From Fragilaria crotonensis (lineage: Eukaryota > Bacillariophyta > Fragilariophyceae > Fragilariales > Fragilariaceae), in assembly GCA_022925895.1 (NCBI GenBank), contig JAKSYS010000487.1:1-48920 (forward strand): a stretch of DNA of 48,920 nt, read 5' to 3'. Below the pieces are notes generated by a model. The model ran no database searches, was not told where the DNA came from, and saw only the letters and a list, made by a program, of their open reading frames with translations. A program made the translations under genes and the position numbers. Position 1 is the first letter of the stretch; the number at the start of each line of letters is the position of its first letter. This document shows, piece by piece, positions 1,761 through 43,651 of the stretch.

Positions 1761-3355
1761 CAAACTGGTCCAAATGCTACGACTCCACATTTGACAAGAT
1801 TAACTTGCCTCATGCATGCTGCATTTCGGCTTTTTACGACCTGCTGCTCAGTTCTCCAATCACCTTCACTTTGCAGGAAGCTGTTTCACCAATACATTGT
1901 GGACTGCTATGCCCAAGTGGAACAAGGCCGTCTTAATTTCATCCGTCTTAATCAACCAAGATTGCGTGCTGAACTTTATCAAGGCATTGCAGATGCTGTT
2001 GCTGGTGAGGATGTGACAAACACTCGACAGCTGGGGCGACGAATCATTCTGCCTTCATCTCACATTGAAGTGCAAGAAACATGCACCAGCTTTGCCAGGA
2101 TGCATTGGCAATTGTGCGCCGAATGGGCAAGCCAGACCTCTTTATTACAATGACAACCAATCCGCAGTGGCCAGAAGTTGTTGAAAACCTTCTTCCTGGC
2201 CAAACTGTAAATGACAGACCAGATTTGGTGGCACGAGTGTTCCATCTCAAATTTACAGAGATGATGATTGACCTCCAGAAGCGGCAAGTGCTTGGAAGGG
2301 TTGTGGCTGCTATCTACACCATCGAATTTCAGAAGCGAGGATTGCCGCATGCACATGTACTGGTCATTTTGGCAGAGAATGACAAACCGCGCACAGAATC
2401 TGACATTGACCATATTGTTTCAGCTGAGATCCCAGATGCATTGATAGATCCTGAACTTTTTGCAACTGTGAAGAGGTGTATGTTGCATGGGCCCTGTGGC
2501 ACCAAAGTTTCCCCCAATCGATGGAAAAATTTGAAGTGTTGTAATAGTTCTACAAAGCCAGCAGGTGAATGCAAGGACAAGTATCCCCGGCCCTTTCAAG
2601 ATGAGACAACACTCAATGATGATGGATTCCTCAATATCATCGACGTGATGATGGAAGGACTGTAACTGTTCGAGGAGCTGAGTTGGACAACCGCTGGGTT
2701 GTGCCATATAATTGCCATCTTACCAAGAAGTATGATTGTCATATCAATGTTGAGGTGTGCAATTCAGTGCAGGCCGTCAAGTACCTCTACAAGTATGTAT
2801 ACAAGGGACACGACCGTGCTGCAGTCCAGATGGGGGGAAGATGTTGATGAGATCAAGCTCTATCTTGATGGACGTTATGTCTCTGCATCAGAGGCATGCT
2901 GGCGCCTCTTCAGCCTTCGTCTACATTCAGAGAAGCCCAATGTGATGCGCCTAATGTTCCATCTTCCCAATCAGCAATCAGTGGTTTTTGAGGAAAATGA
3001 AAATGTTGCTCAAGTGCTTGCAAGAGGACCACCCTGTACACAATTGACTGCCTGGTTGGACCTCAATCGGCATGATCAGTATGCTCGCCAGTTCCTTTAT
3101 CATGACATCCCACAACACTACACATGGAAAAGTGCTGGTGTCGAGAAGTGCTGGGTACGACGCTCCAATCACCGGCAGACATTCCCCACTGTGTCTCGCC
3201 TCTACAGTGCTTCCCCTTCTTCTGGTGAGAGATACTTCCTGCGAAGGATGTTGACTGTAGTGAAAGGTGCAACAAGCTTTGAAGCTCTACACGAACCGTT
3301 GATGATGTACTTTGTCCAACATTTCAAGATGCCTGTCGTACATTGGGTCTTCTAG
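1755..3355 (+). pseudogene. Helitron Rep (HUH endonuclease) region
   Basis: The frame 1755-2153 holds YIVDCYAQVEQGRLNFIRLN and RRIILPSSH. The frame 2081-2665 continues with LFITMTTNPQWPEV and FQKRGLPHAHVLVIL. The HAH pair in the last string (about 2347-2355) is the metal-binding HUH motif of rolling-circle nucleases. The frame 2699-3355 has LYLDGRYVSASEACWRLFSL, HLPNQQSVVF and GERYFLRRML, which belong to the region between Rep and helicase. Rep would nick and rejoin DNA at the element ends. Frame changes near 2080 and 2660-2800 show that this copy cannot make one continuous protein. Confidence 0.88.
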
Positions 3356-5174
3356 ATGATGATACTGAGTGGCATCGAGCCATGCAGGAAGCCACACAGA
3401 CACTCTCCCCAGCAAGGCTCAGAAGACTTTTTGCAATCATCCTCTTCAACTGTGATGTCTCTGACCCAAGGTCACTCTATGACTCTCACTGGGCTGCCCT
3501 GTCAGAAGACTATGCACACCGTCAACCCAGCCTTAGTGAACAACACCTGCAGGACCTCCTTGTGCGTAAACTTGATGCCCTTCTGGGGATAATGCACAGC
3601 CGTTCTGTATTCGAATGGATACCATCCCTCCGCACACTTCTGGTTGAGGAGCATGGGAGTGCCATGGACAACAATTCAGTCAACCATTTGTTAGAATTGC
3701 AGCTGTCATCATCCAACACTGATATTCAACAGCAGCTGGATCGCCTCCCTCTCCTGAATCTTGAACAGCGTGCTATTTTTGATGCTGTACTTGCTTCTGT
3801 GAACAACAATGCTGGTACTGAAAATCAGAAAAATGTTTATTTTGTTGATGGACCTGCAGGCTCAGGTAAGACGGAGTTGTTCAGGATGATCCTTGCCAAG
3901 GTGCGCAGTGAAGGGAAGGTTGCCTTGCAACGGCCATATCAGGCATTGCTGCCTCAAACTTTGCCCCTTTGGGCCGTACTCTGCACTATATATCCGGGCT
4001 TCCAATTCAATTATATGAAACATCCATGTGCAACCTATCAAAAGAGAAGGCAGAAGTTATGAAGGTTGCAAAGATTTTGATCATTGATGAGATCACAATG
4101 CTTAAGGGTGTTGGTCTTGATGTTCTTTCACAGTCTCTTTGTGATTTACTTGAACGTAATGATGCTCCTTTGGTGGCTTGGTTGTCGTCATGGGTGGTGA
4201 CTTTCGTCAAGTGCTTCCCATACTACGCCATGCTGGAAGAGCTACCACTGTGCATTCAACTGTCCTACAATCCAAAGTCTGGCAAACATCATCTGTGAAT
4301 GTAATGCAACTCTCTGAAAATATGCGATTGCGAATGGACTTACAGAACACAAATGCTAACCCAGAGTTCCAAGAAGTACTTTCCCATTTTGCATCTTTCC
4401 TGTTGAGGATCGGCGAGGATATGGAGCCTTCCCAATAAATCTACCATCTTATATATTCCAGCCTCAGGATACAAACGAACTGGTTGAGCATGTGTTTGAT
4501 GATTTTTCTTCCAATGAACCAGCCTATTGGTCTGAACGTGCTATTCTATGTCCTAAAACAAAGATGTTCAAAGAATCAATGATATGGTAACCTCAAGGCT
4601 ACCTCATGATGAACATGTGTTTCTCAGTATTGACAACATCATATCTGAGGAACCTAATGATCCTGCACATACCCTCTATCCTCCTGAATTCCTGAACTCT
4701 TTGGAGCTATCTGGCCTTCCACCACATTGCCTCACTCTGAAAAAGGCATGTTGGTCATGCTGCTCGAAACCTATCAAGCACACTCAGCAATGGCACCCGC
4801 CTCATTGTTCGCGTATCTCACAGTCTGTCCTCCAGTGTTTGATTCCTACCACTGCAGAAATTGTGGACATACCACGGATTGCTCTCCTATCACCTCAAGA
4901 TGAGCTGCCATTTGTCTTCAAACGACGTCAGTTTCCAGTTCAACCAGCATATGCAATGACGATCAACAAGAGTCAAGGTCAAACATTGCGAAGAGTTGGC
5001 ATTTTCTTGCCACAAGGTGTATTTGCACATGGCCAGCTTTACGTTGCTCTCTCAAGAGTTCGTAACCCACATGATCTTTTCATATTTACTGATGGTCATC
5101 TTCTGCACAACATTGTTTATAAGGAGGTCCTGATATCAAAACTGTGCCCTCAGTATCATCAACAGGATTTGTAA
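3343..5174 (+). pseudogene. Helitron Pif1-like helicase region
   Basis: Helicase motifs occur in order but in several frames. Walker A is FVDGPAGSGKTELF (about 3841-3882). Walker B is ILIIDEITML (about 4075-4104). Motif III is MGGDFRQVLPI (about 4190-4222), followed by QLSENMRLR. The C-terminal motifs are AMTINKSQGQTLRRVGIFLP and LYVALSRVR (about 4953-5063). This is the superfamily 1 Pif1/RecD-like helicase that drives Helitron strand displacement. Frame breaks fall near 3930, 4010, 4175, 4430 and 4580, so the domain is not translatable as it stands. The last frame ends at a normal stop at 5172-5174. Confidence 0.88.
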
Positions 5175-15935: not shown

Positions 15936-16886
15936 TTAAGCATGCGTCGTTGAGGCCGATACAGAACGTGGAGACCCCAAAAGTCCTTTGCTTGTTTGTT
16001 GCTTGCACAGCTGAACTATCTGTTGGGAGACACAGCCCGGGGATACCGAGAAAGTACTAGTTTCAAGACAACGGAACAATCGACTCTTCACATACGTACG
16101 TTCGATGTCGTTAGAACGAATGTCGGCATATCGGATGATGGTATCCAAGATTGAGTTCATTGAGGAACATGGCGGCGACGTGAATTCCAAGGCGTTCCTC
16201 AAGGCGACCAAAGCAATGGTCGATGGCTTGGATGCCAGAAAAAGGCAGTCCTTTACTGCGAGTTCTGTTTGAAATTTGCAAAGCTCAATAATCACGGACC
16301 TTTCTGAACTGGAAATTATGTTTTCAGGCACCACAAGTAAGTAATAGCGTACAAATGCGAGGGCAGTCGGAGGGTGCACTCGCCACTTCAGAGCTGCAAG
16401 GATCTTTCGTTCCATATCAATGACTTCCTGTGCCGAGAAGATGCCTCGGCTTAAACTCGACACAGCTTTGGGTTCCATTGCTTGAGGCTCGTGTATTTTT
16501 ATGGCAGTGTAGAGGCATGTCATGCACGCTAACTGAAACAAACCGCGGTCATCCCTGGTCTCACGAGAAGAAAGAGTGTATCGATCCAAATAGTTGATGG
16601 CAATTGCAACTGTCTCACGACTGAACTTGCAGAAATCGACTATCTGATAGCACCACTCGATCATCTTCGATCGACAGCTTTCATCGACTGAAGCTGCCGC
16701 ATCTGGTGAGGAGAGGAACGACAGTTGGTGCGAATGGAAGTATGCACAACCTTCACAACTATAGAATTCGTCTTCCTGTTTTCTCATTGCCTGAAGGGTG
16801 CAAACACTTTCCTCGACGGATATTCTTGATTGGAATGCCATTATCATACAATGATCTTGAGAAGTGGAGGATAGGAGAGTCGCCAT
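15936..16886 (-). CDS. Diatom-specific cyclin (dsCYC), copy 1
   Basis: The ORF is 316 residues in one exon. The cyclin box begins about residue 71 with CRSKMIEWCYQIVDFCKFSR, followed by ETVAIAINYLDRY. The Arg and Lys expected to contact a CDK lie in this stretch. FQLACMTCLYTAIKIHEP and LKWRVHPPTALAFVRYYL follow, completing the cyclin fold. The N-terminal motif VEESVCTLQAMRKQE aligns with EDAAASIEAMRMQE in copy 2. That alignment suggests that the start may be Met14 or Met16 (16847 or 16841) rather than Met1. dsCYCs are an expanded diatom family; members respond to light or nutrients and act at cell-cycle entry. The C-terminus has GSPRSVS, conserved in all three copies here. Which dsCYC this is cannot be told from the sequence alone. 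Confidence 0.85.
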   Translation of the reverse strand: MATLLSSTSQDHCMIMAFQSRISVEESVCTLQAMRKQEDEFYSCEGCAYFHSHQLSFLSSPDAAASVDESCRSKMIEWCYQIVDFCKFSRETVAIAINYLDRYTLSSRETRDDRGLFQLACMTCLYTAIKIHEPQAMEPKAVSSLSRGIFSAQEVIDMERKILAALKWRVHPPTALAFVRYYLLVVPENIISSSERSVIIELCKFQTELAVKDCLFLASKPSTIALVALRNALEFTSPPCSSMNSILDTIIRYADIRSNDIERTYVKSRLFRCLETSTFSVSPGCVSQQIVQLCKQQTSKGLLGSPRSVSASTTHA

Positions 16887-21996: not shown

Positions 21997-22916
21997 ATGT
22001 TCTCCACAATGCCACACATCGTCACAGCCGAAGACGCTGCTGCCTCTATCGAAGCTATGCGTATGCAAGAAGAGTCTGGATACAAAACAGACGACTACAT
22101 GTTCCAGGCTCAACCTGAGTTTCACAAGCTCAAGGTCCTCAGCAACAACCTGTTGATACTGAATGCCGCTCGAAGATGTCAGAATGGTGTTTCCAAGTTG
22201 TTGACTTCTGCAAATTCAACAGAGAGACAGTTGCAATTGCCATGAGCTACCTTGATCGATTCCTCATGACAACATCTGGAAATGATGCGATGACAGACCG
22301 AAAGGTCTTCCAGCTCGCAGCCATGACCAGCCTCTACACTGCCATCAAGATCCACGAGCCCGAAGCAATGGAGCCGAAGGTCATCGCTAGCCTCAGCCGT
22401 GGTGCATACACCGAAGATGAAGTCACTGCAATGGAACTTCGCATTATCTCAGCGATCAAGTGGCGCATGAACCCTCCAACTGCCATGGCCTTCGTTCATC
22501 ATTTCCTGTCCCTGCTGCCCAAAGGTGCCATGAAAGACAGTGAGAAAGCAAAAACGATTGAGCTAGCCAAATTTCAGACTGAGTTGGCTGTCAACGCCTA
22601 CGAATTCGTCGGTGTTAGCGCCTCCACAGTCGCGTTCGCGTCCTTGTCCAACGCCCTCAATTGCTGTAATCTGGACTGCGACGTTGAATGTGAGCTATTG
22701 AACAACATTGCAGAAGTCGCCAGTATTAACAGCCACAACGATGAAATGCGCAGCGTCCAAGATAAGCTTTATAACGCCGTTCAAGGCGCGTCATCATGTT
22801 CTGCCAATAGCGTCCTACGTCCTTCGCCGACCATCACAAAAAACATGGCATGCGATATGGGCAACAGCAGTTCCTCGATCCACACATCTCCAAGAAGTGT
22901 ATCAGCACATAATTAA
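21997..22916 (+). pseudogene. Diatom-specific cyclin (dsCYC), copy 2, with one frame break
   Basis: The frame from ATG 21997 gives MFSTMPHIVTAEDAAASIEA and continues to about residue 45. The cyclin box is in the minus-1 frame. That frame is open from 22119 and reads PVDTECRSKM, then SEWCFQVVDFCKFNRETVAI, matching copies 1 and 3. The switch must lie between 22119 and 22175, where no normal-sized intron fits. It is either a small indel or a sequence error. The rest is intact: LDRFLMTTSGND, QLAAMTSLYTAIKIHEPEAM, IKWRMNPPTAMAFVHHFL, and a C-terminal TSPRSVSAHN. Because only one shift separates it from a full cyclin of about 300 residues, I would not conclude that the gene is dead. Confidence 0.82.
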
Positions 22917-27547: not shown

Positions 27548-27580
27548 GTGTTTGAAACTCAAATCACTCCTCAAGCCACA

Positions 27581-28495
27581 ATGTTTGCCAAGATTTGCAG
27601 CACCGAAGATGCCGCCTGTTTTATTGAGACAATGAGACACCAGGAAGTGACTGGCTATCAGACGCGTAACTATTTGCGTACCATGGAAGGTAACGATCAT
27701 GCCGACCCTTGCGTTGTTGGCTACGCCCCCCTCAACTGTGAGGATCAAGTCAACTCTGATTGCCGATCGCGCATGGTGGATTGGTGCTTTCAGGTTGTCA
27801 ACTTTTGCAAGTATGAAAGGGAGACGGTTGAAATTGCTATGAGCTCGCTCGACAGATTCCTCGGAACAGCTCAAGGTAATGACGCGTTGAATGATCGCAA
27901 AACCTTTCAGCTTGCTGCCATGACATGCCTTTACACTGCCATCAAGGTCCACGAGCCGGAGGCTATTGATCCGCAAATGATGTCGGGCTTGAGTCGAGGA
28001 GTCTACTCACCCAAGCAATTCGAGGCGATGGAGCTGAAGATCATGTCGGCCCTTCAATGGCGAGTGAACGCGCCAACTAGCATGTCATTCGTGAGGTTTT
28101 TCATGGCCTTGCTCCCGGATGCTGCAATTATGGGTGATGAGCTCGATGCTATCTCAGAGTTTGCGAAGTTCCAAACTGAAGTAGCCGTCGGGGAGAATTC
28201 GCTGGTGGGAGTCAGCGCTTCAACCATTGCGTTAGCAGCGATTGCCAATGCTCTCAATGCGCTGGACGACCAGGAGCTGAAATGCACTTGCATCGAGAGC
28301 ATTTCCGAGACGGCTAAAGTCGATATTCATTCCCATACTTTTGTTAAGACCCGAGGGCGACTCTGGAGTGCCATGGAGAAGGAGCCTCATGTCCAACGGC
28401 GTCACATGATGCCACAGTCTCCTTCCGTGGAGAAGATGGCGGAGAGATCGTCTGTAATTGACGCATCTCCTCGAGCAGTCGTTTCGACCAGATAG
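27581..28495 (+). CDS. Diatom-specific cyclin (dsCYC), copy 3
   Basis: The gene has one exon and no break. The frame opens at Met 27548, but alignment with copies 1 and 2 favours Met 27581 (MFAKICSTEDAACFIETMRH), giving 304 residues. The cyclin box reads SDCRSRMVDWCFQVVNFCKY, then ERETVEIAMSSLDRFL. It is followed by LAAMTCLYTAIKVHEPEAID and LQWRVNAPTSMSFVRFFMAL. The C-terminus ends DASPRAVVSTR, the same SPR[SA]V tail as its neighbours. It should bind a CDK in the nucleus or cytoplasm and act in cell-cycle control. Target and timing cannot be read from sequence. Confidence 0.88.
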   Translation: MFAKICSTEDAACFIETMRHQEVTGYQTRNYLRTMEGNDHADPCVVGYAPLNCEDQVNSDCRSRMVDWCFQVVNFCKYERETVEIAMSSLDRFLGTAQGNDALNDRKTFQLAAMTCLYTAIKVHEPEAIDPQMMSGLSRGVYSPKQFEAMELKIMSALQWRVNAPTSMSFVRFFMALLPDAAIMGDELDAISEFAKFQTEVAVGENSLVGVSASTIALAAIANALNALDDQELKCTCIESISETAKVDIHSHTFVKTRGRLWSAMEKEPHVQRRHMMPQSPSVEKMAERSSVIDASPRAVVSTR

Positions 28496-29299
28496 CAGTG
28501 TCATCAGCCTATGTTTTGCTAACATTAGAAATTAGATGCTAACTTCCTACAATGTCTCATCACGGTAGTTAGCACTTCGAACGCGTTAGACGACAAAGGA
28601 GGTCCAACCATCGCTCATCGTTCATTTCGTGGCTTGCACCGCCAGTCCTGGATACTACTACTACGATGCTACACAGGGGAGTGGTACGAGTACGGTACCT
28701 GTTACTAGTAATGGCAGTTGCACCTGACTCCCATTTTGATCACGGAACGACTCGTGGATGCCGAATTTGGGAAGGTGCGGGGGACTCATGACCCACGTCT
28801 CACTCGCCAGCGCCTCCCTTTCTTCTCCTTTTCATACGAAAGAACGGTAGAGTTGTCTACTGAAGTACTAGGTACTACGTGTACTACTACTCCAGCCGAG
28901 CCCAAAGACAAGCCTACTACCGGTACTGTAGCCCTGGAGTACTCCAGTACATAATACCAATACTTCAGTACTCCAGTACACCTGATACAGTCTGCTCGTC
29001 TTGTTCGTACGTATTTTATGTTTACTAGCTAGTAGTGGGTTCCTCACAACTGATCGGAGTATGTACGATACATGCTATTGTTTTACAGTATTCATAGCAT
29101 TTGCGAAGCAACCTGTTTACAGTTTACAGCAAATTCAATGAGTATTCCGTCCAGTAACTTTGAATCCGTATAGTATTTTACTTCAGTAACGTAGGACACT
29201 GTCGTTCCAACATAAATTACCGTCGATTTATGTACTGTAGACCTGTAGTACATGTGATCCACGTAACAGTACAACAGTACCTCAGAGTGGTCATACTCC

Positions 29300-29302
<3 letters not shown>
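28496..29302. other. GTAC-rich intergenic DNA
   Basis: No gene is seen. AGTACT and GTACTCC words repeat from about 28680 to 29000. The stretch ends at the (AC)n microsatellite that precedes the retrotransposon. Confidence 0.5.

Positions 29303-29350
<48 letters not shown>
29303..29350. repeat. (AC)24 microsatellite
   Basis: The run is 48 nt of uninterrupted AC dinucleotides, directly upstream of the non-LTR element. A second (AC)n in the same orientation lies at its 3' end. Confidence 0.98.
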
Positions 29351-29351
<1 letters not shown>

Positions 29352-32300
29352 ACATCGGAGTTGTCGTCAAGTCAAGCCGACGAGAGAGCCTTTGTGTAGT
29401 GTCATGAGTGTGAATGGTGCCGCGAGGGGCAACGCCCGAGGAACGGCGGCAAATGATGCCGCAACGGCGATGATCGGCGGTGTCGGTCATCGTCGCCTCA
29501 TGTTGCCCACCGCGCGCCAGGAAATTCAAAACTCCTCGACGCGTAGCGCGCTCGTACCCCACGGTACAACGCGCGAGCGTCCGTCCTCTGTCCGTCGACA
29601 GCTGGCGAGTGATGAGTCGTTACAAAACGACGACGATGGTTCCACTCGCGAACCACCGTTGCGTCGCCAGCGACAAGTCCTCCAGCGCTGCTGCGACTGC
29701 TCGAGATCATCGACCTGTGCCCTGGCACGGCCGACAGCTCGCTCACAAGCTTGTCCCTGCCGAGTTGCGAACAAGCGCTGCACTTCGTGCAGCTGCTTCA
29801 ACAACTGCCAGAACAAGCGAGCGCCGCTGCCGCCGCCGACGACAGCGACCCTCCGATGCTTCTTCACCAGTCCCGGCGCAACTGCGACCACAGAGCCCAC
29901 CCCAGCAATCGAATCCGCCCCTCCAGCTGCCGTTCCGACCGCGACCGAGATCCCCCCAGTGCCTTCCCAAACAACCCGACAACAAACCGCAACGACTGAC
30001 GTCGACGGTGACGTCGGCATGACCCCGGAGCCACTGGATCGGGCCCCCGCTCCGACGCCTGACGACGCCAATGACGACCCCTCCTTGCCCGCCCCGACGG
30101 ATACAGAGACGGCCGCCGATGCTGGCGAGGACCCGATTCCTGCTTGTCCCCCCGTGACAGTGGCAGCGGCCAATAGGGCCAACGCCACTGCACGGGACGA
30201 TCCAGAGGCGGCCCCCGGACCGGCAGTAATGCCGGACGTGGGGGCCGATCTGCCCGGCTACTTCGTAACCGCGGCCGATCGCCTTCTGGATTCCGCCTTT
30301 GGAGATCACGTCCACGACAACGACGGGACGCATCTCCACGGCGGCTTCTCCGATGACGCGCTCTGGCAGCGCCGATGGAGGCGGATGGCACAAATCGCCA
30401 CCACACGATACCAGGCCCCTGCTGGGAAAGTGGGGAGGCGATTCCTAACCATCCTCACCTCCGAATTCCGCGGCGTCCGCGAACGCCGATGGAACTCGGA
30501 ACGACCCCTGGTGTTTGTCGCAACAGTGCTGCAGACGACACCAGGAGTTCGTCGGTCCAAGGACATTCGTTCGCGCCTCGCGCAACGAATGGACTTGTGG
30601 GACCAAGGCCACTTCAAGGCCTTGGTCGACGACGCTGAGGGGGAAGTCCAGTCTCGACAACCCTCCTCCCGTCCACCCGACGAAGAGGCGCAGGCGCGTT
30701 CCTTCAACGCACGCGTCCTCTCCGGCAGACTTCGCTCTGCCGTGCGGACACTCACCGACCGCTCCGGTGGCGGCGTCCGCCAGCCAGACGACCTCTGCTC
30801 GAAGGCAGGTCGACCGGTCTGGCAGGTGCTTCAAGAGAAGCACCCTGCCCTCCGCGACCCGACTTCTGTGGGCGATACGGATGGGGCTTTCGAGCCCTAT
30901 CCCGATCTCCCTGCCCCCGTCCCTGTGTGCACTACACAGGACGACGTGGAGGCGATCGCCTCACGGCTCTCAGGTGCCGCCGGCCCCGGCGGTACTGACG
31001 CCGTCGACCTCGCCAACTGGCTTCTCCGTTTCGGACGAGAGTCCGAAGCGCTGCGAGAGGAGATGGCGGCCTGGACCAACTGGCTCGCCAACACCTCGCC
31101 GCCTTGGGCAGCCTATCGGGCAGTCATGGCGAATCGCCTGGTCGCCCTTGACAAGCAACCAGGCACTCGCCCGGTCGGCATTGGCGAAGTGTACCGTCGC
31201 CTGTGGGCCAAATGCCTGCTGAAGGCAATTGGCTCGCAGGCAACCGCCGCATGCGGCAACTACAACCTGTGTGCCGGCCTCCAGGCAGGCATCGAAGGCG
31301 CCGTACACGCCGTGCGTGACGTCTTCGCTGACCCCTCGTTGATTCCTGCACCGCCACCAGACCCGCAAGCCGACGCTGACCCCCTCACGCAGGCTCCCGA
31401 GCCACCGATGGCTGCGCCACCCTCCGTCCCCCTCGCAGAAATGACACTGGACGAGGCCTTCGAGTCCATCGCCGACGACGTAGGCCTCTCCTCGGCTGAA
31501 GCCTCGGCCGTCCTCTTGGTCGACGCGACCAACGGCTTCAACGAGCTCGGCCGCAAGGCCATGCTATGGACCGTGCGTCACACGTGGGCCAACGGGGCAC
31601 GGTTCAGTTTCAACTGCTACCGGCACTCCGCCCAACTCCTCATGCGACGGCGCGGAGGAGATTGCGAGATCATCCTCTCGCGAGAGGGGGGGTCACGCAA
31701 GGCGACCCCCTCTCCATGGTGCTCTACGGACTCGCGCTGTCGCCGCTCGCCGAGACGCTTCGAGCGCGAGTCCCCACGGTCGCCCAACCATGGTACGCGG
31801 ACGACGCGGCCATGGCCGGCCCCATCGACGACATCGCTGAGGCTCAGCGCCTCCTTCTCGACCTTGGGCCGCGCCGGGGATACTTCCCCGAGCCGGACAA
31901 GTCGATCCTCATCGTCCCGCTCGCGACCCCGCCACCTGCCCTTGCAGCCCTCGCGGAGTTCAACTTCCGACACGAGGAGGGACATCGCTACCTCGGTGGC
32001 TTCGTGGGATCGGGCGCCGCCGAGGCGGCATGGGTGGACCCTCAGGTCCAGCAATGGATCGAGGGTGTCCACCGCCTCGCGGCGGCAGCGAGGAGGTACC
32101 CACAGACCGCCTACGCCGGTCTGTCGCAGTCACTCCAGGCGGAGTGGCAGTACCTCCAGCGCGTGACGCCAGACATCGCGCCAGCCTTCGCACCGCTGGA
32201 GGCTGCCATCGCGACTGTCTTCCTGCCGGCCCTCCTCGCCACAACGGTTGAGGAGGTTGCCAAACTTCGCCCCCCTCCTTGCTCTCCCGACGCGACTGGG

Positions 32301-33515
32301 AGGCCTGGGCATCCCAGACCCGACGACCACAGGCGACTTCTGTTTCGCGGCGTCGAAGGAGAGCACGTCCCTCCTCCAGGGGTCCTTGGTGACGGGCGAC
32401 AGGCTCTGTGCTACGGAGCACCGACGTGACGCTTCCCGAGGTCGCCTCGCGGCGAAGGCGAGCCGGTCTCGCGTCCAAGCGAGCCGCTTGGACGCGATCC
32501 TTGCGAGCTCGCGTCCACTGGAGAAGCGACGCATCGTAAGGTCGGCGGCGACAGGCGCCTGGCTCTCCACCTTGCCGAGCCTGCTCAACGGCTCCGACCT
32601 CTCGGACGAAGAATTCCGAGACGGCGTCCGCCTCCGCTTCGGCCTGACGCCAACATCTCTCCCACTCCGATGCGACGGATGTGGCGAACGCTTCACGACG
32701 GAGCACGCCATGTCCTGTCGCAAGGGAGGGCTGATCCTCCACCGCCACAACGACCTCGTGGCGACGTGGGGACAGCTTTGCGGACAGGCGCACACCCCCT
32801 CCACAGTCTCTGACGAGCCCCTCATCCAAACGAGTCAGGACGTGCAGGCGGCGGGCGCCAACCGCACCGAGCCCACCCCAGAACTCCGAGGCGACATCGC
32901 TGTCCACGGCTTCTGGACCCGAGGCACCACCGCGATCTTTGATGTCCGAGTCACCGACACGGATGCCCCCTCGAATCGCAACACCGCTCCGGCGAAGGTC
33001 CTCCAGCGACACGAGGCGGAGAAGAAGGCCAAATACGGCGCCCTCTGCATTGCGCGACGCCGTACCTTCACTCCCCTTGTGTTTTCGGTGGATGGGATGC
33101 AGGGAGTGGAGGCTACCGCCGCTTCGCGGCGGCTAGCCTCCAGCCTTGCTTCCAAGTGGAGGCGATCGTACTCCGAAGTGTGTGGCTTCGTACGATCCCG
33201 CCTCGCGATCGCCCTGGTTCGCTCCGCGAGCCGCTGCCTACGCGCCGATCGCAACCCGATGCGCCGTACCCCCTTCCCGATCTGGGACTGCGGCGCGGGC
33301 CTCGGCCTCTACCGCATGTAACTGACGTGCCCCTTTGCCCCTGCCGCCGCTTCCGCTGCCGAACGACGCATCCCCATGGCGCACGCCCCGGATTCAAGAC
33401 TTTCGGATGTATAGCACTGGCGCACCGCTACGCGATGCCTACGGCACTGTTGTACCGGCCCATTCATACACACATCCCTAGTTTAGCTTAGCTACACGTA
33501 ACATACATAGCACCC

Positions 33516-33705: not shown

Positions 33706-33710
33706 CTGTG
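33706..33710. repeat. Target-site duplication, left
   Basis: CTGTG precedes the left LTR and is repeated exactly after the right LTR (39998-40002). Confidence 0.93.
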
Positions 33711-34100
33711 TGTTGTAAGGTGTAGTATTGCGCAACCTATACTATGTGGCAATAAACCGAGTACTTCTCTTGTTGTGCTTACTAGAACCGAATTGATAGA
33801 ACAGTCGTGGTCAATCAAACCTTGACTTTACTAACGGGATTGTTTCGAGATAATAATCCCAAAACAATCTTATTAAACTGGGCTCCAGAAACCTTTTTCT
33901 GTGTCGACGTCGTGGACTCTGGTACGCGACGCACGACGTCGGCCCATGTGGTAACTTTCGTTTTCAGGCGTTCTAACTTCTGTGGTTCAGCTTGTACCGT
34001 CATGTTGAACCCCGTATTTTGGTTCTTCAGTGGACTACTGCCGGTGTTCATGACGCCCGTAACCGTGCCATTATGTGGGCCCATTCGTATTTCTCCAACA
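33711..34100 (-). repeat. 3' LTR of the copia element
   Basis: The LTR is 390 bp. Read on the minus strand it starts TGTTGGAGAAATACG and ends CCTTACAACA, so it has TG...CA ends with a 5-bp inverted TGTTG/CAACA. It is identical to 39608-39997. The pol frame continues through most of it and stops at 33815. Confidence 0.96.
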
Positions 34101-37100
34101 CGCTCCTCGATGGGGTCAGGTAGGGGAGCGGCAAGGGCGCTAACATGTAGATTGCCGAGCAATACGTCCCTAAATCTCTTGAAAAGGCGACCCTGTAGTG
34201 GCTTGGTAAAAAAATCCGCAAGCATTTCCAAGGTGGGGCAATGTTCCACGGTGATGGCGCCCGTCTTCAATCGATCCTTTATCCAAAAGTATCGGATGTC
34301 AATGTGTCTGGACTTCGGTCCGGCAGACATGCGTCCGTTCTTTTCGAGCTTGATGGCGCTTTCATTATCTTGGGCCAGGATATTTGACTTCATGGTGTAT
34401 CCTTGTGCCTCCAGGAAGAACTTCGTCCAAACCGTGTTTGGCAGATAATCGCTGGCGCCAACGAACTCGGCCTCCGTTGAACTCTTCGTGTTCAGTTTCT
34501 GTTTAGTGGACTTACACACGATTCCACCGAGCCCAAACGAGATCACGCCGCCCGTGTGACTTTTCATGTCCGGGTGCACGGCGAAAGCGGCGTCGACCCA
34601 GGTCATCATCCTACCCATGTCGTCGGCGCCGATTGTGTACTCGTGGTCCATGCTGCCATGGATGTATTCGAGTACTCGCTTCAGTTTGTCTCGGTCCTGC
34701 TTGGTACTTTTCGATACCCGGGTGCAGAGAAACGCGATTGCTAGTAGTAGGTCCACGCGCGCTCTGGTGGATACATACAGCAGTTTTGCCGTGACACTGT
34801 GAAACGACTCGGCCTCACTTCGTTCGAGCAGTGGGGAATTGTCGTCAACGTCGAAAAGGTCTCTTAGGGCGGGCGTTGCGACGGATCGCGTGATATTCAT
34901 GCCTGACTCGGCCAGCGCCTCCTTTAAATACTCTTTCATGGTGATGACGGCGGTACCTTCTCCTGTGTACTTGATGAGCATGCCAAGGAACACATGTTCC
35001 GAGCCCCTCTTCACGGTCATCTTTCCGAAAGTAGCCTCAATTTTTTCGATGATTGATGTGACCACATTCGGGTCGGCATGTGATATTTTTGTGTCATCAA
35101 CGTACCAAGCGATAGTGCACTGTTTGCCGTTGATGGTGCTGTTCGCGATACATGAGTCGTATGGGTTTAGTTCGAAACCCATTTTCTGCAGCGTGCCGCT
35201 AAACAGCTCGTACCACAATAGAGCGGACTTTACACACCCGTAGAGCGCCTTCACTAATCTTACGTAGAGCACCTTCGTTCCTCCTTCAGTCGCCACGTGT
35301 TTGTTGTGATCCGGGTTCATTTTACATAAGATGTCGACGGATTCCCCGGTGAACTTCATTATAACAAAATCGTCCATGAATGCCTTCAGGTAGGCTGCAA
35401 CGACGTCGGCCGTGGCAACGTCGCGGGCTTCCTTCGCATCTATCATGATAGATAGCATCAGTGCGTCCGTAGATACCGTGGGTGAAGCCGTCTGGGACTT
35501 GTCGTACATGCTGCGCTGAGGTCTGCCATCGGCGACGGTGCGTGCCCTCAGTGATCCGTCGCGCTTCTCTTTTAGGAGGTTTATGGCACGGAGGGCCTCT
35601 TTGCGTTGCTTCCTCGTAAGTGTTTTTGGGTCAATGGACTCGTAGGCGCTGAGGTCCTCAAGTTGTGCAAACTCTTTCATTAGGGCAATCTCTGCGGCCT
35701 TTCCATGTTTCCGGATGCCAGCCTTTGCGCTCATTTGGTTCATGATGAATCCGAATACGTGTTTCATGAGGGTCGTCTCGGCTGTCTTTCCGTGTCGCTT
35801 GACTTGTTCACGTATGTTTGAGGACCCGGCGAGTTGGTTCATGAGTTGTGCAAAACTGTGGTGGCCTTGCTGTAGCAGCTGGGTCGGGGGAAAATAGGAT
35901 TTGCCGTCGTGTGGTGTGTCCATGGCTTGCTTGAACGTGTTGTTCTTGCTTGCGGGCAGGCGTTGGCGGAGGTTATATGGTCGTTCTGTTGCGTCGTGCA
36001 AAACGGTATCCTCCGTTGCGTGCTGTTGCGCTCCTTCGTCTTCGTCGGCATTCTCCGTTGCGTACTGTTGCGCTCCTTCGTCTTCGTCGCGTTGCGCTCC
36101 TTCATCTTCATTGCGTTGCGCTCCTCCGTCTTCTGCTGCTTGTCGCGCTCCTTCGTGGGAAACGTTGTCGTCGTTCCCGTCGTTCGGAACGTTGTCGACG
36201 TCATCGTCGTTTGCGTCGTTCGGAACGTTGTCGTCGTTGTCGTCATCGTCGTTTGCGTTTCCATCGTCATCGTCCGACTCGTCGTTTGCGTTTCCATCGT
36301 CATCGTCCGGCTCGTCGAAATCGTGCGCCGCTCCTCCGTCGTTTGGGTCGTTGCTACTATAGTCATCGTCAGACTCCTCGTTGTCGTCCTCCGCTCCTTG
36401 GTCCGCGGCGTCGGCCAGCGGGGCATATGGGTTGTCAGCGAGGAGGTCGTTAATTTCGGCGACGTCGATGTCGTCGTAGTCGTCGGCGTCAAAAACATGT
36501 GGGGCAGCGGCGTCCGCCGGGGGAACGTAGTCGCGGTCGTATTCGGAATCGTCGATTGGCTGATCGGGGCGCCACTCGACGACTAGACCGGAGGTTTGGA
36601 GCAGTGGCTGTTTCTCGTGCAGTGCCAGAGCTTCGGTGCGGGCGATGGCAGTATCGGTCATAGGCAGCTCGGTCCATTGGTGGCGGGAAAGACGGTTGCC
36701 GGTGGCGAGCGAGAGAAAAATAGTCGCCTTGCGCGTTCCCGTGGGTGTGAGCGCGATGGCGCCGAGCGAACGTGCTCGTAAGGTGTTGGAAGGAGTTGTC
36801 TTCGAACACTTGGGCGTATGCACCAAACTCGATACGCATGCAGTTGTAGTCGGGCGTGCCGACGCCGGTGACAATGCTTGCAGGGCTCATGGTGGCAGAG
36901 ATACCGTTCGGCCAAGGGAATTGGTTGAGGCAACGAATGGTGTCGGCGACCATGTGCTGGACCAAAGGCGAGGAAGCCTCTTAAAGGGAGGCCGTGTGCG
37001 CAGGAGCGCAGGCGTTCCTTCACGGTACGGATGGACCGCTCCACTTCGCCGACGTGACTGTCGGCAGGTACGACGTTTAGGCCGATGGGACGTAGAGATT

Positions 37101-37761
37101 CGCGGATGCACCCAAATTCGTGGTCGCCATGTACGTCGCGTACGGTGAGACCACGCGCTTGGTACAGTTTGATCACGCCCCGCAAACGTCGCAAAATCGT
37201 AGGTTTGCTTCGGTCGGGGACTGGGTGCGCAGTGCGATATCCGATACCGCGAGAGATGGTGTGGAGGAATGGGAGTCCCTGGACAAAGAAAAAATCGACA
37301 CATAGGGTGACGTCTCGGTGGTGTTCAAGTATGGCGGCTGGGATGTGTTCTGCGATAAATGTGGGCGCACGCGGCGCGGCGTGGGAATGTGTCGTCTTCC
37401 CTTTTATCGTAGCTACGTCAGGTCCGTAGATGATAAGGGCTCGCTGCGCGTCACTCGGCGTGACGGGACAATTCCGGATAGCGTTGCATTTCAGTAGTTC
37501 GACAAATTCCGTCTCGGCTGGGCGCCCGATCTTTCGATATAGGTCACGCGCCTGGTCGGCGGCCCTGACTTCCCTGCGAGAAAACAATTTCTTTTGTTTA
37601 GCTACAGTGTTCACCATGGTGTAACCAGTAACACGATCACTAGTATCGTTACTCTTGTAAACATAAAGTCCGGATGGATGTTCAACAAACTTCATCACCG
37701 AACCGTCAAGTCGGTGGACGTGGAGGGCGGTTCGTCGGAGGTGTCCATCGTGACGCGGCAC
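33815..37761 (-). pseudogene. Copia pol: integrase, reverse transcriptase, RNase H
   Basis: Integrase (37761 to about 36790) has the DDE residues in VTLCVDFFFVQ, VRDVHGDHEF and HVGEVERSIRTVKERL. Frame breaks lie near 36984 (TTAAAGGG), 36965 (AAA) and 36825. From about 36800 to 33815 one frame runs on. It has an unusual acidic Asp/Asn-rich linker (36020-36560). The RT has VRLVKALYGCVKSALLWYE and WYVDDTKISH. RNase H has DAAFAVHPDMKSHTGG and NTKSSTEAEF, then DIRYFWIKDRL and MLADFFTKPLQG, typical of copia. The last 95 codons lie inside the 3' LTR. The integrase breaks make this copy unlikely to act on its own unless they are sequence errors. Confidence 0.9.
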
Positions 37762-39227
37762 ACCTTCCGAACCTCTGCAAGGGATAAAATGTTCGCAATT
37801 GACTGCTTGTTAAACCACACCTCTCCGAGGTTTGGGAAATCGCCGATCATCGTGGAGTCCTGATAGCCCCCGTTCGTGAGGGCTCGCAACACGCGCCCGC
37901 TGTGTCGGATGTTACGTAACATTTTCGCATTCCTGAAAACGGACATGGTGGATTGGGAGTCGAGGAGTATCCAATCCGGGTCGATCACATGTTCGTGCTC
38001 AGGTGCTGGTGCTGCCGACTGGGCGAGCATGAATGCGTACTGGGTCAGCGTGGTTCCAGGTGTTGTTTCGCCAGATGGGCAATTTCCGGCGTAGTGTCCG
38101 TGCTGTTGGCAGGTCCAGCATTGGATATCCTCATGCGTCAGACCGTTCGTTCCGGGGACCAAAACGCTGCTGCTGCGTTGAGCGAACGTCATTGCACTGG
38201 CCTCGGGGCTAGCGACCTGCTGAGTTCGCGTGTTCGCGTTCCTGTTCGTGGGCGCGTTGACTGGGGTCTTGTATGTCACCAGTAAACCCTTGGCGGTAAC
38301 CACGTCGGTGGGATATTCGTCCCTCCCTGAGGCGTATTGGTTTCTGAGGTCTGTGATGAGAGTGCCGTACCTAGAGCGGTCTGCGCTTCGAATGAGTGCC
38401 ATGGCCAGCGTTCGCTCGCGCGCGAGAGCTTTGCGACGTTGCACGTCTCGCGGGAGTCCGTTGTCTCCTGTCTCGGGGATCAACGTATAGTCGGCGGCAA
38501 CCGTACCGCCGTGCGTCTCGATGGTTTCGGCCCACCCGATAAGACAATCAGCGTAGTCGTCGGCGGACTGTCCGGGCAGCTGCTTGCAAGAGAGGAAACT
38601 CTGCTGTGCATCGAGCAAGGATAGTATGGCGTTCTTGCTTTCGTCAAACTGTAGAGTAATGGACTTGATTTGGCGGAGCAGCCAGAAACAGTCGTTCTTG
38701 GTCGCCTTGTCTGCGTAGTACTCGCTCGTCTTGACTCGTGCCTTCATGTTTTCGCTGCACTGTCCCCAGATGACGGCGAACACGGTAGCTATGTTACTGG
38801 CCAAGGCACGGGTTCGTTTAACATATTCCTTTACTTCTTCGGCAAAAATCATCTTCATGGTCTCTCCGGCGCCGGGGGCGAGGTCGCCAGGCAGGTCTAT
38901 GGTCGGAGTGCGCATCGTCGTTCCGAAAAGCGGTGCCAAATCGGCGGAGTAGTTGAGTTTCTTCTTAACGTAGGCATCGAGTGCCTCGATGGTCTTGGCG
39001 TACTGTCGCCTGTCAGCTTGTTCTTCATAACACTGGAAAACATTTCCGTTCATGTCTTCTGTGTCGCCCTTGAATGTGGGACGGCTAGTGGTTGTCGTTG
39101 TTCCTCCGTTCCGGGTTCGTCCAGCACGGTTTCCACGCATTGTCCTGTTCGTAGCGTTTCTGCTTCCAGCGTTGCGAGCACCGGTTGTGGTACTGCTCGT
39201 CGCGGCGTCAGGTGTTTGCTGGCTCAT
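37695..39227 (-). CDS. Copia Gag-protease
   Basis: The ORF is 510 residues with no break. The N-terminus is Thr/Arg/Asn-rich. The middle is a helical capsid-like gag region. A CCHC zinc knuckle CWTCQQHGHYAGNC lies near residue 380. The protease active-site motif WILLDSQST follows near 430, with LDSQ in place of the usual D-S/T-G. The frame ends shortly after NILSLAEVRKVCRVTMDTSD. Integrase continues in the minus-1 frame, which overlaps by 67 nt. No canonical slippery heptamer is visible there, so this may be an indel rather than programmed shifting. The product would form virus-like particles and process the polyprotein. Confidence 0.88.
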   Translation of the reverse strand: MSQQTPDAATSSTTTGARNAGSRNATNRTMRGNRAGRTRNGGTTTTTSRPTFKGDTEDMNGNVFQCYEEQADRRQYAKTIEALDAYVKKKLNYSADLAPLFGTTMRTPTIDLPGDLAPGAGETMKMIFAEEVKEYVKRTRALASNIATVFAVIWGQCSENMKARVKTSEYYADKATKNDCFWLLRQIKSITLQFDESKNAILSLLDAQQSFLSCKQLPGQSADDYADCLIGWAETIETHGGTVAADYTLIPETGDNGLPRDVQRRKALARERTLAMALIRSADRSRYGTLITDLRNQYASGRDEYPTDVVTAKGLLVTYKTPVNAPTNRNANTRTQQVASPEASAMTFAQRSSSVLVPGTNGLTHEDIQCWTCQQHGHYAGNCPSGETTPGTTLTQYAFMLAQSAAPAPEHEHVIDPDWILLDSQSTMSVFRNAKMLRNIRHSGRVLRALTNGGYQDSTMIGDFPNLGEVWFNKQSIANILSLAEVRKVCRVTMDTSDEPPSTSTDLTVR

Positions 39228-39593: not shown

Positions 39594-39607
39594 TTATCTC
39601 GAAACAA
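39594..39607 (-). promoter_or_regulatory. Candidate self-complementary primer-binding site
   Basis: Directly after the 5' LTR the minus strand reads TTGTTTCGAGATAA, where the primer-binding site should be. It does not begin with TGG as a tRNA 3'-end site would, nor does it look like the initiator-Met half-tRNA site of many copia elements. The same 14-mer occurs in the opposite orientation inside the LTR (39737-39750). The RNA could therefore pair with itself, with the primer 3' end next to U5. Confidence 0.6.
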
Positions 39608-39997
39608 TGTTGTAAGGTGTAGTATTGCGCAACCTATACTATGTGGCAATAAACCGAGTACTTCTCTTGTTGTGCTTACTAGAACCGAATTGATAGAACA
39701 GTCGTGGTCAATCAAACCTTGACTTTACTAACGGGATTGTTTCGAGATAATAATCCCAAAACAATCTTATTAAACTGGGCTCCAGAAACCTTTTTCTGTG
39801 TCGACGTCGTGGACTCTGGTACGCGACGCACGACGTCGGCCCATGTGGTAACTTTCGTTTTCAGGCGTTCTAACTTCTGTGGTTCAGCTTGTACCGTCAT
39901 GTTGAACCCCGTATTTTGGTTCTTCAGTGGACTACTGCCGGTGTTCATGACGCCCGTAACCGTGCCATTATGTGGGCCCATTCGTATTTCTCCAACA
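39608..39997 (-). repeat. 5' LTR of the copia element
   Basis: This LTR is identical to 33711-34100 over all 390 bases by direct reading. Inside it, 39733-39757 can form a hairpin with a 6-bp stem (gggatt/aatccc). The segment complementary to the primer-binding site (39737-39750) lies mostly in the loop. Confidence 0.96.
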
Positions 39998-40002
39998 CTG
40001 TG
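39998..40002. repeat. Target-site duplication, right
   Basis: CTGTG matches 33706-33710. Confidence 0.93.
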
Positions 40003-40104: not shown

Positions 40105-41455
40105 ATGAAGCGACTAACATTGTTAAGTGGCTCGACTGCAGTCGTCATAATAATCTTGTGTTCAACCAATCTGGTTTTTCTTTCGAAACTGGGTTTGAAT
40201 GTCGAAAGCTCGCACACGCCTGTTGTTGACGGATCGGCGTTCCCGACTAACATTCAATTGCCAATCAATGCTACGAAAAATGTATCCCGAGAGGCGTCGG
40301 ACACTCCAAAAGAATTAATGAAATCAGGTTCTACGCGCTCTGTAATTGCCAATAATACAGCAAGAATGAAGTACTCCGACGTTTGCTTTTACGGAAGCAC
40401 GAGATTCTTCTTTGGCCAAACAACTACTAAGCAGTTTGTCATGAATTTTCTGACAGTGCTCAGGGACGTGTCGCTGCGTTCCTTCAATGAAGCTCTGATT
40501 GCGAAGAATAAAATCCGCGTGCTTTTGCCCATATCCAGCTTCAAACCTCACTTCCAATCGGTGGAAGAAGTTATAAAATTCCTCAAGCCAGTCGTTGACA
40601 CTTATACCAAACTGGAAGTTACCTTTACTCGAAACGCACACAACATTGCAAGACGTCGCTTTAAAAAAGACAAGCTGCAAATGGGTGGTTATAACCAAGC
40701 TTGACGCCGACGATGTGATCTTTCCAGGATTCCTCGACTGGATTGCCCAAAAGGTGATACCCACGTTGGACCGTGGAGCTGTGGTTGGGGGACAGTACAT
40801 GAACCGCCTTGTCATGGGGTATGACCTATGTCTGGTCAAAAGTAATGTTGGGCCCTTTCATTGGCCCGGCGAGGCCATGGCACAAACTCGAGTCATTCGA
40901 CGGGACGTGTTTCTACAATTGCGTACACCGTTTGAAGCTCCTGCGCATACTGCAGCGCTAAGTAGCCTTCGACGAGCCGTATTTCGATTGCTTTTCGAGG
41001 GTGAGCAACTTCCCATTCCCCTGGAACGAAATCCAAACGGCGCTCGTTTGAAATATTCTCAAGAGAAGTTGTGGGATGCTCAGATGGAGAATATCACTGG
41101 CATTCGCATGGTGGAACCAAGCTTAGCAAGTGACCCATTCGGTCCTCCATCAGTGTACCTTAAGTCTCCGTTGTCGTCACACTTTCTCTACGAGAACATT
41201 GGCACCATGCCTCGTTGCACGGATTCAAAGTGGGCATCCGCCTGGGACAAAGCTATGTATCACAATGCCATAAAGTCGAATATGGATTACATACATACCA
41301 CTCTTCAGCGCTTGAATTTCTCTGTCTACGACACCTGCAAAAGCCACTCATACTTTGCTGATTTTTTCGCTGGAACTTCGAATCTCGCTTGGTTCGGCAA
41401 TGCTACCACTTGCGAAGAGATGGAAGCAAGATTGCGTAAAGCCTTGAAAGCGTAG
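40105..41455 (+). pseudogene. Glycosyltransferase-like type II membrane protein, copy 1
   Basis: ATG 40105 starts MKRLTLLSGSTAVVIIILCS, a signal anchor, then a Ser/Thr-rich stem and the block YSDVCFYGSTRFFFGQTTTK. The frame breaks at an A6 run (40663-40668). With five A the protein continues as RFKKTSCKWVVITKLDADDV, as in copy 2. The DADD is a DXD-like metal/sugar-nucleotide motif of GT-A enzymes. The rest is intact: GQTRVIRRDVFLQLR, NITGIRMVEPSLASDPFGPP and a C-terminal WFGNATTCEEMEARLRKAL. Restored length is about 450 residues. It is a tandem paralogue of the gene at 42128. The copia element ends only 107 bp before this ATG, so its promoter has been moved away or replaced. Confidence 0.7.
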
Positions 41456-42127: not shown

Positions 42128-43651
42128 ATGAAGCGGCTATCATTAGGTGGCTTAGCTGCTATAGTCATTTTGGCCTTTTGTTCCTTCAATGTGATCTTTC
42201 TTGCGAAGTTGGGAGAGAGTCAGACGATTGTAAACACACTTGTTGCGAGAGATGACTTTGCGTCGTTCCGGGGGAAGCAGGCAATCAAAGTCGACTCTGA
42301 ACTCGAGTCGATATTAGTCAAGACCAGGGCACTACCTTTCGATCAACCCACGCCAAGGCAACGAGATCCAAGTCACGTTAAAGTGCCGATTATTGATGCT
42401 TCAATTATGCTATCCCAAGACGAGCATGAAGCAACGAGGGTCATGTTGGTCGCTCCAAGTGAGGTTCCACGAATACCACAAAGCACAATTCACCGAGGGG
42501 TGATTGTTCCAGATTCTGCTACGTCTACGCGCACTGTGATTGCCAACAATACTGCGAGTTTGGAGTACTCTGATGTTTGCTTTTACGGAAGCACAAGGTT
42601 CTTCTTCGACCAAAACACCACCAAGCAGTTTGTCATGAATTTTCTCACAGTACTAAGAGATGTGTCTCTGCGTTCCTTTAATGAAGCTCTGATTGCGAAG
42701 AATAAAGTCCATGTGCTTTTGCCCATATCCAGCTTCGAACCTCACTTCCAATCGGTGGATGACATTGTCAACTTTCTCAAGCCAGTCGTTGACACTTATA
42801 CCAAACTGGAAGTTACCTTTGCTCCAAACGCTCACGAGATTGCAAAACAACGTTTCACGGAAACAGATTGCGAGTGGGTGGTCCTAACCATGCTTGATGC
42901 AGATGATGTGATATTTCCAGGCTACCTCGACTGGATTGCTCAGAAGGTGATACCTACGTTGAACCGTGGAGCTGTAGTTGGGGGACAACAAATGAACCAT
43001 CTGCAGATAGGGTATGATCTTTGCATGGTCGAAACTGACATCCAACCGCGCCACTGGGCTGGCGAATCAACTGGACAAACTCGAGTCATTCGTCGCGACG
43101 TTTTCGACAGATTGGGAAATCCTTTCGAAGCGCCAACCCACACCGGAACGCTGACTGCTCTTCGGCGGAAGGTTTTTAGAATGCTATTCAAAGATGAGCC
43201 ACTTCCTGTTTCTCTTTTGCTACGCAGAAAAGCTCGTTTGAACTTCACACTTCAGAAACTGTGGGATGCTGATTTGGAAAACATTACCGGCATTCGAATG
43301 GTGGAACCGTCTTTGACAAGCGAACCATTCGGCCCGCCGTCAGTGTACTTGAAGTCTCCATTGTCCGCACACTTTTTCTATGAAAAGATTGTCAACATGT
43401 CTCGTTGCACGATTTCAGAATGGGCATCAGTCTGGGAAAAGGCGATGAATCAAAATGTCGTGAAATCGAACATGGATTATATTTACACGACCCTTCAGGG
43501 CATCAACTTCTCAATCTATGACAGTTGCAAAAGTCATTCCTACTTTTCTGAGGTTTTCGCGGGTACGTCCAATCGGGCGTGGTTCGGCAATGCAACAACT
43601 TGCGAAGAGATGGAAGCGAAGTTGCGTGAGACCTTGTTGTTGTACCAGTAG
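42128..43651 (+). CDS. Glycosyltransferase-like type II membrane protein, copy 2
   Basis: I chose Met 42128 (MKRLSLGGLAAIVILAFCSF) because it aligns with copy 1 and begins the signal anchor. The frame is open upstream to 41993. The protein has 507 residues: anchor (about 5-28), a variable stem to about 135, then YSDVCFYGSTRFFFDQNTTK. The catalytic-like core has CEWVVLTMLDADDVIFPGYL with a D-A-D-D motif, as in GT-A and putative rhamnosyltransferase-type enzymes. GQTRVIRRDVFDRLG and NITGIRMVEPSLTSEPFGPP follow. It has several N-glycosylation sites (NTT, NIT, NAT) and would sit in the Golgi membrane facing the lumen. The enzyme activity is inferred from the motif and topology; the sugar and acceptor are unknown. 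Confidence 0.7.
   Translation: MKRLSLGGLAAIVILAFCSFNVIFLAKLGESQTIVNTLVARDDFASFRGKQAIKVDSELESILVKTRALPFDQPTPRQRDPSHVKVPIIDASIMLSQDEHEATRVMLVAPSEVPRIPQSTIHRGVIVPDSATSTRTVIANNTASLEYSDVCFYGSTRFFFDQNTTKQFVMNFLTVLRDVSLRSFNEALIAKNKVHVLLPISSFEPHFQSVDDIVNFLKPVVDTYTKLEVTFAPNAHEIAKQRFTETDCEWVVLTMLDADDVIFPGYLDWIAQKVIPTLNRGAVVGGQQMNHLQIGYDLCMVETDIQPRHWAGESTGQTRVIRRDVFDRLGNPFEAPTHTGTLTALRRKVFRMLFKDEPLPVSLLLRRKARLNFTLQKLWDADLENITGIRMVEPSLTSEPFGPPSVYLKSPLSAHFFYEKIVNMSRCTISEWASVWEKAMNQNVVKSNMDYIYTTLQGINFSIYDSCKSHSYFSEVFAGTSNRAWFGNATTCEEMEAKLRETLLLYQ

Follow-up and report, generated by a model that had tools for sequence, protein, structure and literature searches.

A copia-type LTR retrotransposon of a diatom, together with its relatives in the same genome, very probably starts minus-strand DNA synthesis with its own RNA, and we consider self-priming of the Tf1 type to be the best explanation of the sequences described below. 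The element lies in the window, that is, the whole stretch of 48,920 nucleotides that we analysed. The potential of its primer-binding site (PBS) to pair with a segment of its own LTR, the position of this complement at the LTR edge, and its conservation by joint change were all found in related elements. What is new is the occurrence of a known mechanism in a diatom copia lineage, which is well supported by sequence comparison. The lineage offers strong comparative evidence of self-priming in copia elements, with joint change at 13 of 14 positions. It points to a loss of tRNA priming in copia elements outside plants, which would free the elements from the constraints of host tRNAs. Its sixteen natural primer/PBS pairs form a series for asking how primer length, cleavage, and rewriting of the PBS are set.

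The RNA ends, the cleavage, and the cDNA steps are those that we infer for such a mechanism. The first base of the RNA would be the A that immediately precedes the 14-nt LTR segment, and the RNA would loop back over R-U5, so that its 5' end pairs with the 14-nt PBS. A cut immediately 3' of the segment, presumably made by the RNase H of the element as in Tf1, would then free a 3' end that primes DNA synthesis into U5. Plus-strand strong-stop DNA would copy the attached primer, and the daughter PBS would in this way be written from it. Such copying would keep the PBS and the LTR segment in step and would set the sharp limit of the complementarity at 14 nt.

The element and its primer-binding site

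The element is inserted on the minus strand, with a 5' LTR at 39608-39997 and a 3' LTR at 33711-34100, which are identical and 390 bp long each. Read in the orientation of the element, the LTRs have the ends TG...CA, and a 5-bp target duplication, CTGTG, lies outside them (39998-40002 and 33706-33710), as expected of Ty1/copia elements. Three open reading frames fill the interior, all on the minus strand. The Gag frame (37695-39227, 510 aa) is nearest to the 5' LTR and has a weak zinc-knuckle match (PF00098, E 0.0037) whose 17.7 bits are below the Pfam cut-off of 20.8. An integrase-like frame (36658-37761) lies upstream of the reverse transcriptase (RT), as in copia elements; it was recognised by eye, and a Pfam search of this frame returned no match. 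The Pol frame (33815-36874) carries a copia-type RT (RVT_2, PF07727, E 8.3e-17, 62 bits for a cut-off of 31.6), in line with the RT of Ty1/copia elements (Pseudoviridae). Membership in the Tf1/sushi group of Ty3/gypsy elements was considered and rejected, since it requires a gypsy-type RT followed by the integrase and the RT found here is RVT_2. The three frames (33815-39227) overlap in different frames despite the identity of the LTRs, and the open frame around the RT reaches up to 1762 aa in some relatives versus 1023 aa in the window. Hence, this recent copy is probably frameshifted.

The earlier note on this DNA had described an exact 14-nt inverted copy adjoining the 5' LTR, and direct comparison confirmed it: positions 39594-39607 (plus strand TTATCTCGAAACAA) are the perfect reverse complement of 39737-39750 in the 5' LTR, or nt 248-261 of the LTR in element orientation. 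Because the element is on the minus strand, 39608-39997 is the 5' LTR and 39594-39607 occupies the position of the PBS, straight after it. The proposed self-primer segment at 39737-39750 has its 3' end paired with the first base after the LTR, and it therefore abuts U5 as the note had claimed. The PBS is thus complementary to a segment of its own LTR, with the 3' end of the primer at the LTR edge, the arrangement of the self-primed class. When the LTR was shuffled 3000 times by mononucleotides, no complement anchored at the first base of the PBS exceeded 11 nt, and a single shuffle attained this length, against the 14 nt observed. In all 51 elements with exact complementarity (see below), one more pair joins the terminal A of the LTR to the T that follows the segment. 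The helix can therefore be read as 15 bp, and the cut site can be placed only to within one base. A second copy of the segment is present in the 3' LTR (33840-33853). The Pol frame ends inside that LTR, into which it extends by about 95 codons (33815-34100), and this second copy codes for part of the Pol C-terminus. As a consequence, conservation of the segment itself has a second possible cause.

Joint change of the PBS and the LTR segment among relatives

The genome of the window encodes a RuBisCO large subunit that aligns along all or almost all of its length with PDB chains headed by 7yk5, 5n9z, and 5mz2, which are diatom enzymes, in agreement with the diatom origin assumed in the earlier note. 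We searched this genome (62 Mb, 881 contigs) by pattern, which gave 128 near matches; among the 100 listed, the flanks of many were examined. A search with the RT gave 99 matches, from which 34 RT-directed elements were examined (14 + 7 + 13); many of the other matches are fragments. Together, 59 elements including that of the window were tabulated, 30 found by pattern and 29 by RT, leaving out the pattern matches that are not beside an LTR (e.g. C24, C395, C91, C310, and C391).

All 14 positions of the PBS are complementary to the LTR segment in 51 of the 59 elements, some of which were recognised by the complementarity itself, and these 51 have 16 distinct PBS sequences. The first base of the segment lies 112-147 nt before the LTR edge in the exact elements. 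The nearest group, with RTs about 63-99% identical to that of the window, comprises nine PBS sequences (among them TTGTTTCGAGATAA, TTGTTTTGAGAGAA, TTGTTTCGCGAGAA, TTACTTCGAGAGAA, and TTGTTGCGAGAAAG), and every one of them is matched by the LTR segment of its element. Two further groups are more distant (RT identities of about 44-52% and 40%). They have wholly different PBS sequences, such as AAATTAAATTAAAG, TTTTAAATTAAATA, and GTTTTAGTAAAGTA, which are A/T-rich and unrelated to those of the nearest group, and the rule of complementarity still holds.

The earlier note had proposed to look for compensatory changes in related elements, and these were found at 13 of the 14 positions across the 16 sequences. 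All 224 positions of the 16 PBS/segment pairs are paired, whereas 10,000 re-dealings gave 129 on average and never more than 192. Within the nearest group alone, 126 of 126 positions pair in the nine sequences (re-dealings: mean 105, maximum 120), and none of the 10,000 re-dealings reached the observed value. Complementarity is hence maintained by joint change, as in the self-primed class. On a tree of 41 RT sequences, the paired state must have changed 16 times or more among the exact elements, with per-position minima that sum to 36; in this tree 21 of the 36 inner branches are well supported and 8 are open, and the tool warned of long branches meeting at the deepest join.

Two observations bear on the bias of recognition by complementarity. 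When the LTR edge was set independently, by alignment of the 5' and 3' LTRs, the complement was found at the edge in 10 of 10 elements (C20, C173, C685, C157, C120, C218, C110, C231, C875, and C95), over 13 nt in C685 and with alignments that overrun the CA end by 2 nt in C157 and by 1 nt in C218. The complement is also present in 29 of the 34 RT-directed elements. For the other five (C30, C44 at 252 kb, C874, C694, and C220), no 5' LTR or complement was found, including in a comparison of the 5' and 3' stretches of C874, which gave no match; these five neither support nor refute self-priming. C398 runs off its contig.

Eight of the 59 elements are not exact: seven have one to three mismatches, and one (C603) has no copy of the segment nearby. 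C242 has a single mismatch in the 5' LTR; its PBS is matched exactly by a further copy of the segment in this contig, at C242:21270, which was assigned to the 3' LTR. The PBS is changed and the segment unchanged in both LTRs of C23 (one mismatch) and C560 (two). C327 and C445, with two mismatches each, have TG for CG on one of the two sides and CA for CG on the opposite one, a pattern as would be expected of CpG decay. The match of C685 extends over 13 nt, and C229b has three mismatches, its contig also containing RT fragments interrupted by several stops. In C603, the contig has exact copies of the segment at distances of 7.3 kb and 5.7 kb. The distance from LTR segment to PBS (G000:C603:115165-122473) is 7.3 kb there versus the usual 0.14 kb or so, which suggests that some 7.1 kb were inserted into the 5' LTR.

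Search for a tRNA primer

The main rival explanation is that a host tRNA, or an internal fragment of one, primes these elements and that the match to the LTR is incidental. Drosophila copia is primed by a tRNA-Met half, and the core CTCGAAA resembles the anticodon loop of a tRNA-Ser(CGA). Priming by half-tRNAs is also described for plant copia lineages in the accessible text of PMC6317226. Several results argue against such a primer. The 14-mer was found in 16 exact copies in the assembly, every one of them within one of six elements of this kind, in the LTRs of all six and additionally in the PBS of four. None of the 89 places with at most one mismatch to the 14-mer overlaps any of the 63 listed tRNA genes, a partial set (63 of 2258 tRNA candidates scored) in which intron-bearing tRNAs could be missed. 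A search for CTCGAAA together with a T-arm-like motif gave 14 matches, only one of them tRNA-like. This candidate tRNA-Ser(CGA), at C175:100247-100291, was recognised neither by Rfam nor by ARAGORN and was discarded. Run in its bacterial mode on 48 loci, most of which came from the pattern matches, ARAGORN detected no tRNA. The note had taken a tRNA segment matching the site better as evidence against self-priming, and none was found among the 63 listed genes of the partial set and the 48 ARAGORN loci. The variety of the sites adds to this: one of the 16 PBS sequences consists of A and T only and four have a single G, which makes them hard to fit to tRNAs and a tRNA source implausible. Altogether, we regard priming by a tRNA as extremely improbable. 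With the covariation of the two 14-mers and no better tRNA match in the set covered, the self-priming reading of the earlier note is supported.

Putative RNA start and predicted folds

The bases before the segment are highly uniform. Among the 51 exact elements, the preceding dinucleotide is CA in 50 and TA in one, that of the window, and the preceding three bases are TCA in 42, GCA in 8, and TTA in one. Complementarity stops at this A in 46 of the 51, and in the other five, all of the most distant group, the A pairs with nt 15 of the PBS. An A after a pyrimidine resembles an initiator. That complementarity ends at CA or TA in most elements is as expected if the primer is the RNA 5' end, and the segment may accordingly be read as nt +2 to +15 of an RNA that would start at the preceding A, at 39751 in the window. 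In the predicted minimum-energy folds of the 5' RNA, from this A to 25 nt past the PBS, the PBS helix formed in 24 of 24 chosen representatives, with 13 or 14 of the 14 pairs and mean probabilities of 0.90-1.00.

Joint change of this kind indicates pairing or copying, not priming as such, and long-range pairings of the 5' leader exist in other retroelements. One could then suppose that the 5' end pairs after U5 for packaging, dimerisation, or control of translation, and that another primer is used. Yet the complement begins right after the terminal CA of the LTR in 51 of 51 elements, where the 3' end of a primer must lie, its abrupt end at a start-like dinucleotide agrees with a copied primer, and no other primer candidate was found. 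We therefore hold pairing for another purpose to be very unlikely, if slightly less so than priming by a tRNA, and retain self-priming.

The segment had been placed by the earlier note mostly in the loop of a small hairpin at 39733-39757. This hairpin exists in the window, but it is not conserved as drawn, its flanks not being kept in the relatives (by eye). For the 3' LTR context, the predicted fold prefers over it a 14-bp hairpin with G-U pairs at 39735-39766, on the minus strand, whose upstream arm (39753-39766) is within U3. The upstream arm of either hairpin precedes the putative RNA start, so the RNA would include it in the 3' LTR portion alone. Unlike the small hairpin, the imperfect inverted repeat that spans this start recurs in the nearest group, where 14 of 18 representatives reach 9 or more of the 14 matches. 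The mean over the 18 is 9.7 matches of 14, versus a mean of 7.2 and a maximum of 7.8 for shuffled upstream sequence. When the upstream arms were re-dealt among relatives the mean was 9.3, and the observed 9.7 was reached in 6 of 2000 cases. The arm is weak or absent in four of the 18 (C196, C111, C95, and C536, with 6-8 matches). In ten elements of the two distant groups it has 6-8 matches, no better than shuffled sequence.

These repeats bear on which copy of the segment primes. The RNA holds two copies, and sequence cannot tell priming in cis from priming in trans. As a variant of self-priming, and not exclusive of it, the segment could act in trans, supplied by a second RNA copy, by the copy in the 3' LTR, or by a short promoter-proximal RNA. 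Against this, folding predicts for the nearest group that the hairpin sequesters the 3' copy, and the sharp limit at the putative start favours the 5' end, so we think that priming in trans is unlikely. For self-priming from the 5' end, one idea is that the upstream arm could keep the 3' copy of the segment from competing. Taken further, the nearest group might possess a built-in switch that selects the primer, the start being in the loop of an inverted repeat. Transcription would split the hairpin, freeing the 5' segment to prime, while the 3' LTR copy would keep its partner arm and stay locked. With the PBS rewritten from the primer in every cycle, a lineage could drift to any primer sequence, which would give rise to sixteen PBS sequences in one genome. 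We offer this switch tentatively, as a possibility that we rate above priming in trans and still find rather doubtful.

Comparison with known self-primed elements

Biochemical proof of self-priming exists, as far as is known, for the fungal Tf1 group of gypsy elements, and in other elements it has mostly been deduced. In Tf1 the PBS pairs with the first 11 bases of the RNA, which RNase H cleaves after base 11 (PMC7175516); the same scheme has been proposed for Tj1 (PMC4600332), and PMC3601003 and PMC5006619 deal in passing with self-priming in general and with Skipper elements. Like the Tf1/sushi elements (Tf1, Tf2, Tj1, and Tcn1), the diatom elements have a PBS beside the 5' LTR that is complementary to a segment at the putative 5' end of the RNA, a segment 3' end that abuts U5, and no tRNA match within the partial tRNA set. 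They differ from these gypsy elements in being of the copia type (RVT_2), in the length of the complement (14 nt versus the 11 of Tf1; PMC7175516), and, in most of the nearest group, in the inverted repeat that spans the putative RNA start.

The earlier note knew of no self-priming in copia elements. There is in fact a precedent, as self-priming has been predicted for the TAR lineage of plant Ty1/copia elements, including Houba and Osr-1 (PMC6317226). These are likewise copia-type elements with a PBS predicted to pair with their own 5' LTR. Their hosts are plants and not diatoms, and the prediction, as given in the accessible text, is based on complementarity over 10 bp or more (PMC6317226), whereas the diatom elements show joint change across 16 sequences. 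GalEa copia elements of fungi have a conserved hairpin site in place of a tRNA PBS, and the authors of that study detected no LTR sequence complementary to it (PMC5445492). The diatom elements resemble them as copia elements for which no tRNA PBS was found in the set covered and differ from them in having the LTR complement. They also resemble the CoDi lineages, copia-type elements of diatoms with LTRs of 153-844 bp and mostly TG/CA ends (PMC2806351). The main text of that study has no mention of priming, primer binding, or tRNA, and uses "PBS" once, for a buffer. A literature search, with most subscription journals outside its reach, found no report of self-priming in diatom copia elements in the titles and passages that it covered.

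Related sequences in other records and neighbourhood of the element

A contig of 5.3 kb filed under a bacterial bin (L201, JAJTHV010000262.1) encodes an RT 43% identical to that of the window. An unguided search of the entire contig for complements of at least 12 nt, spaced 40-500 nt apart, gave one match, in the expected arrangement. The LTR edge reads TTTCTTCA and is directly followed by the PBS TTATCAGAAATTGG, and 116 nt upstream GCTCA is directly followed by the segment CTAATTTCTGATAA. The two form 13 Watson-Crick pairs and one G-U pair of 14, and TCA precedes the segment. A terminal repeat of this contig was considered as a pair of LTRs and rejected, being gag-side sequence that is present twice. 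The contig has a single LTR-like stretch, between pol and gag, so the LTR edge is not defined by two LTRs, and the layout is as in a one-LTR circle or a tandem array. A second copia locus (L202), also in a contig filed under a bacterial bin, lacks the 5' part. Both are probably eukaryotic contamination of bacterial bins. Among viral contigs, no relative was confirmed.

In the window, two neighbouring gene copies, 76-88% alike in parts, lie directly beside the insertion (40330-41341 and 42524-43531). On the other side, frames resembling the RT of non-LTR retrotransposons by eye (29230-33321) adjoin the 3' LTR and are followed by a CA repeat. Further away, also by eye, there are frames resembling a Helitron-type replication helicase (2081-5174) and three cyclin-like paralogues (15936-16886, 22176-22916, and 27548-28495).
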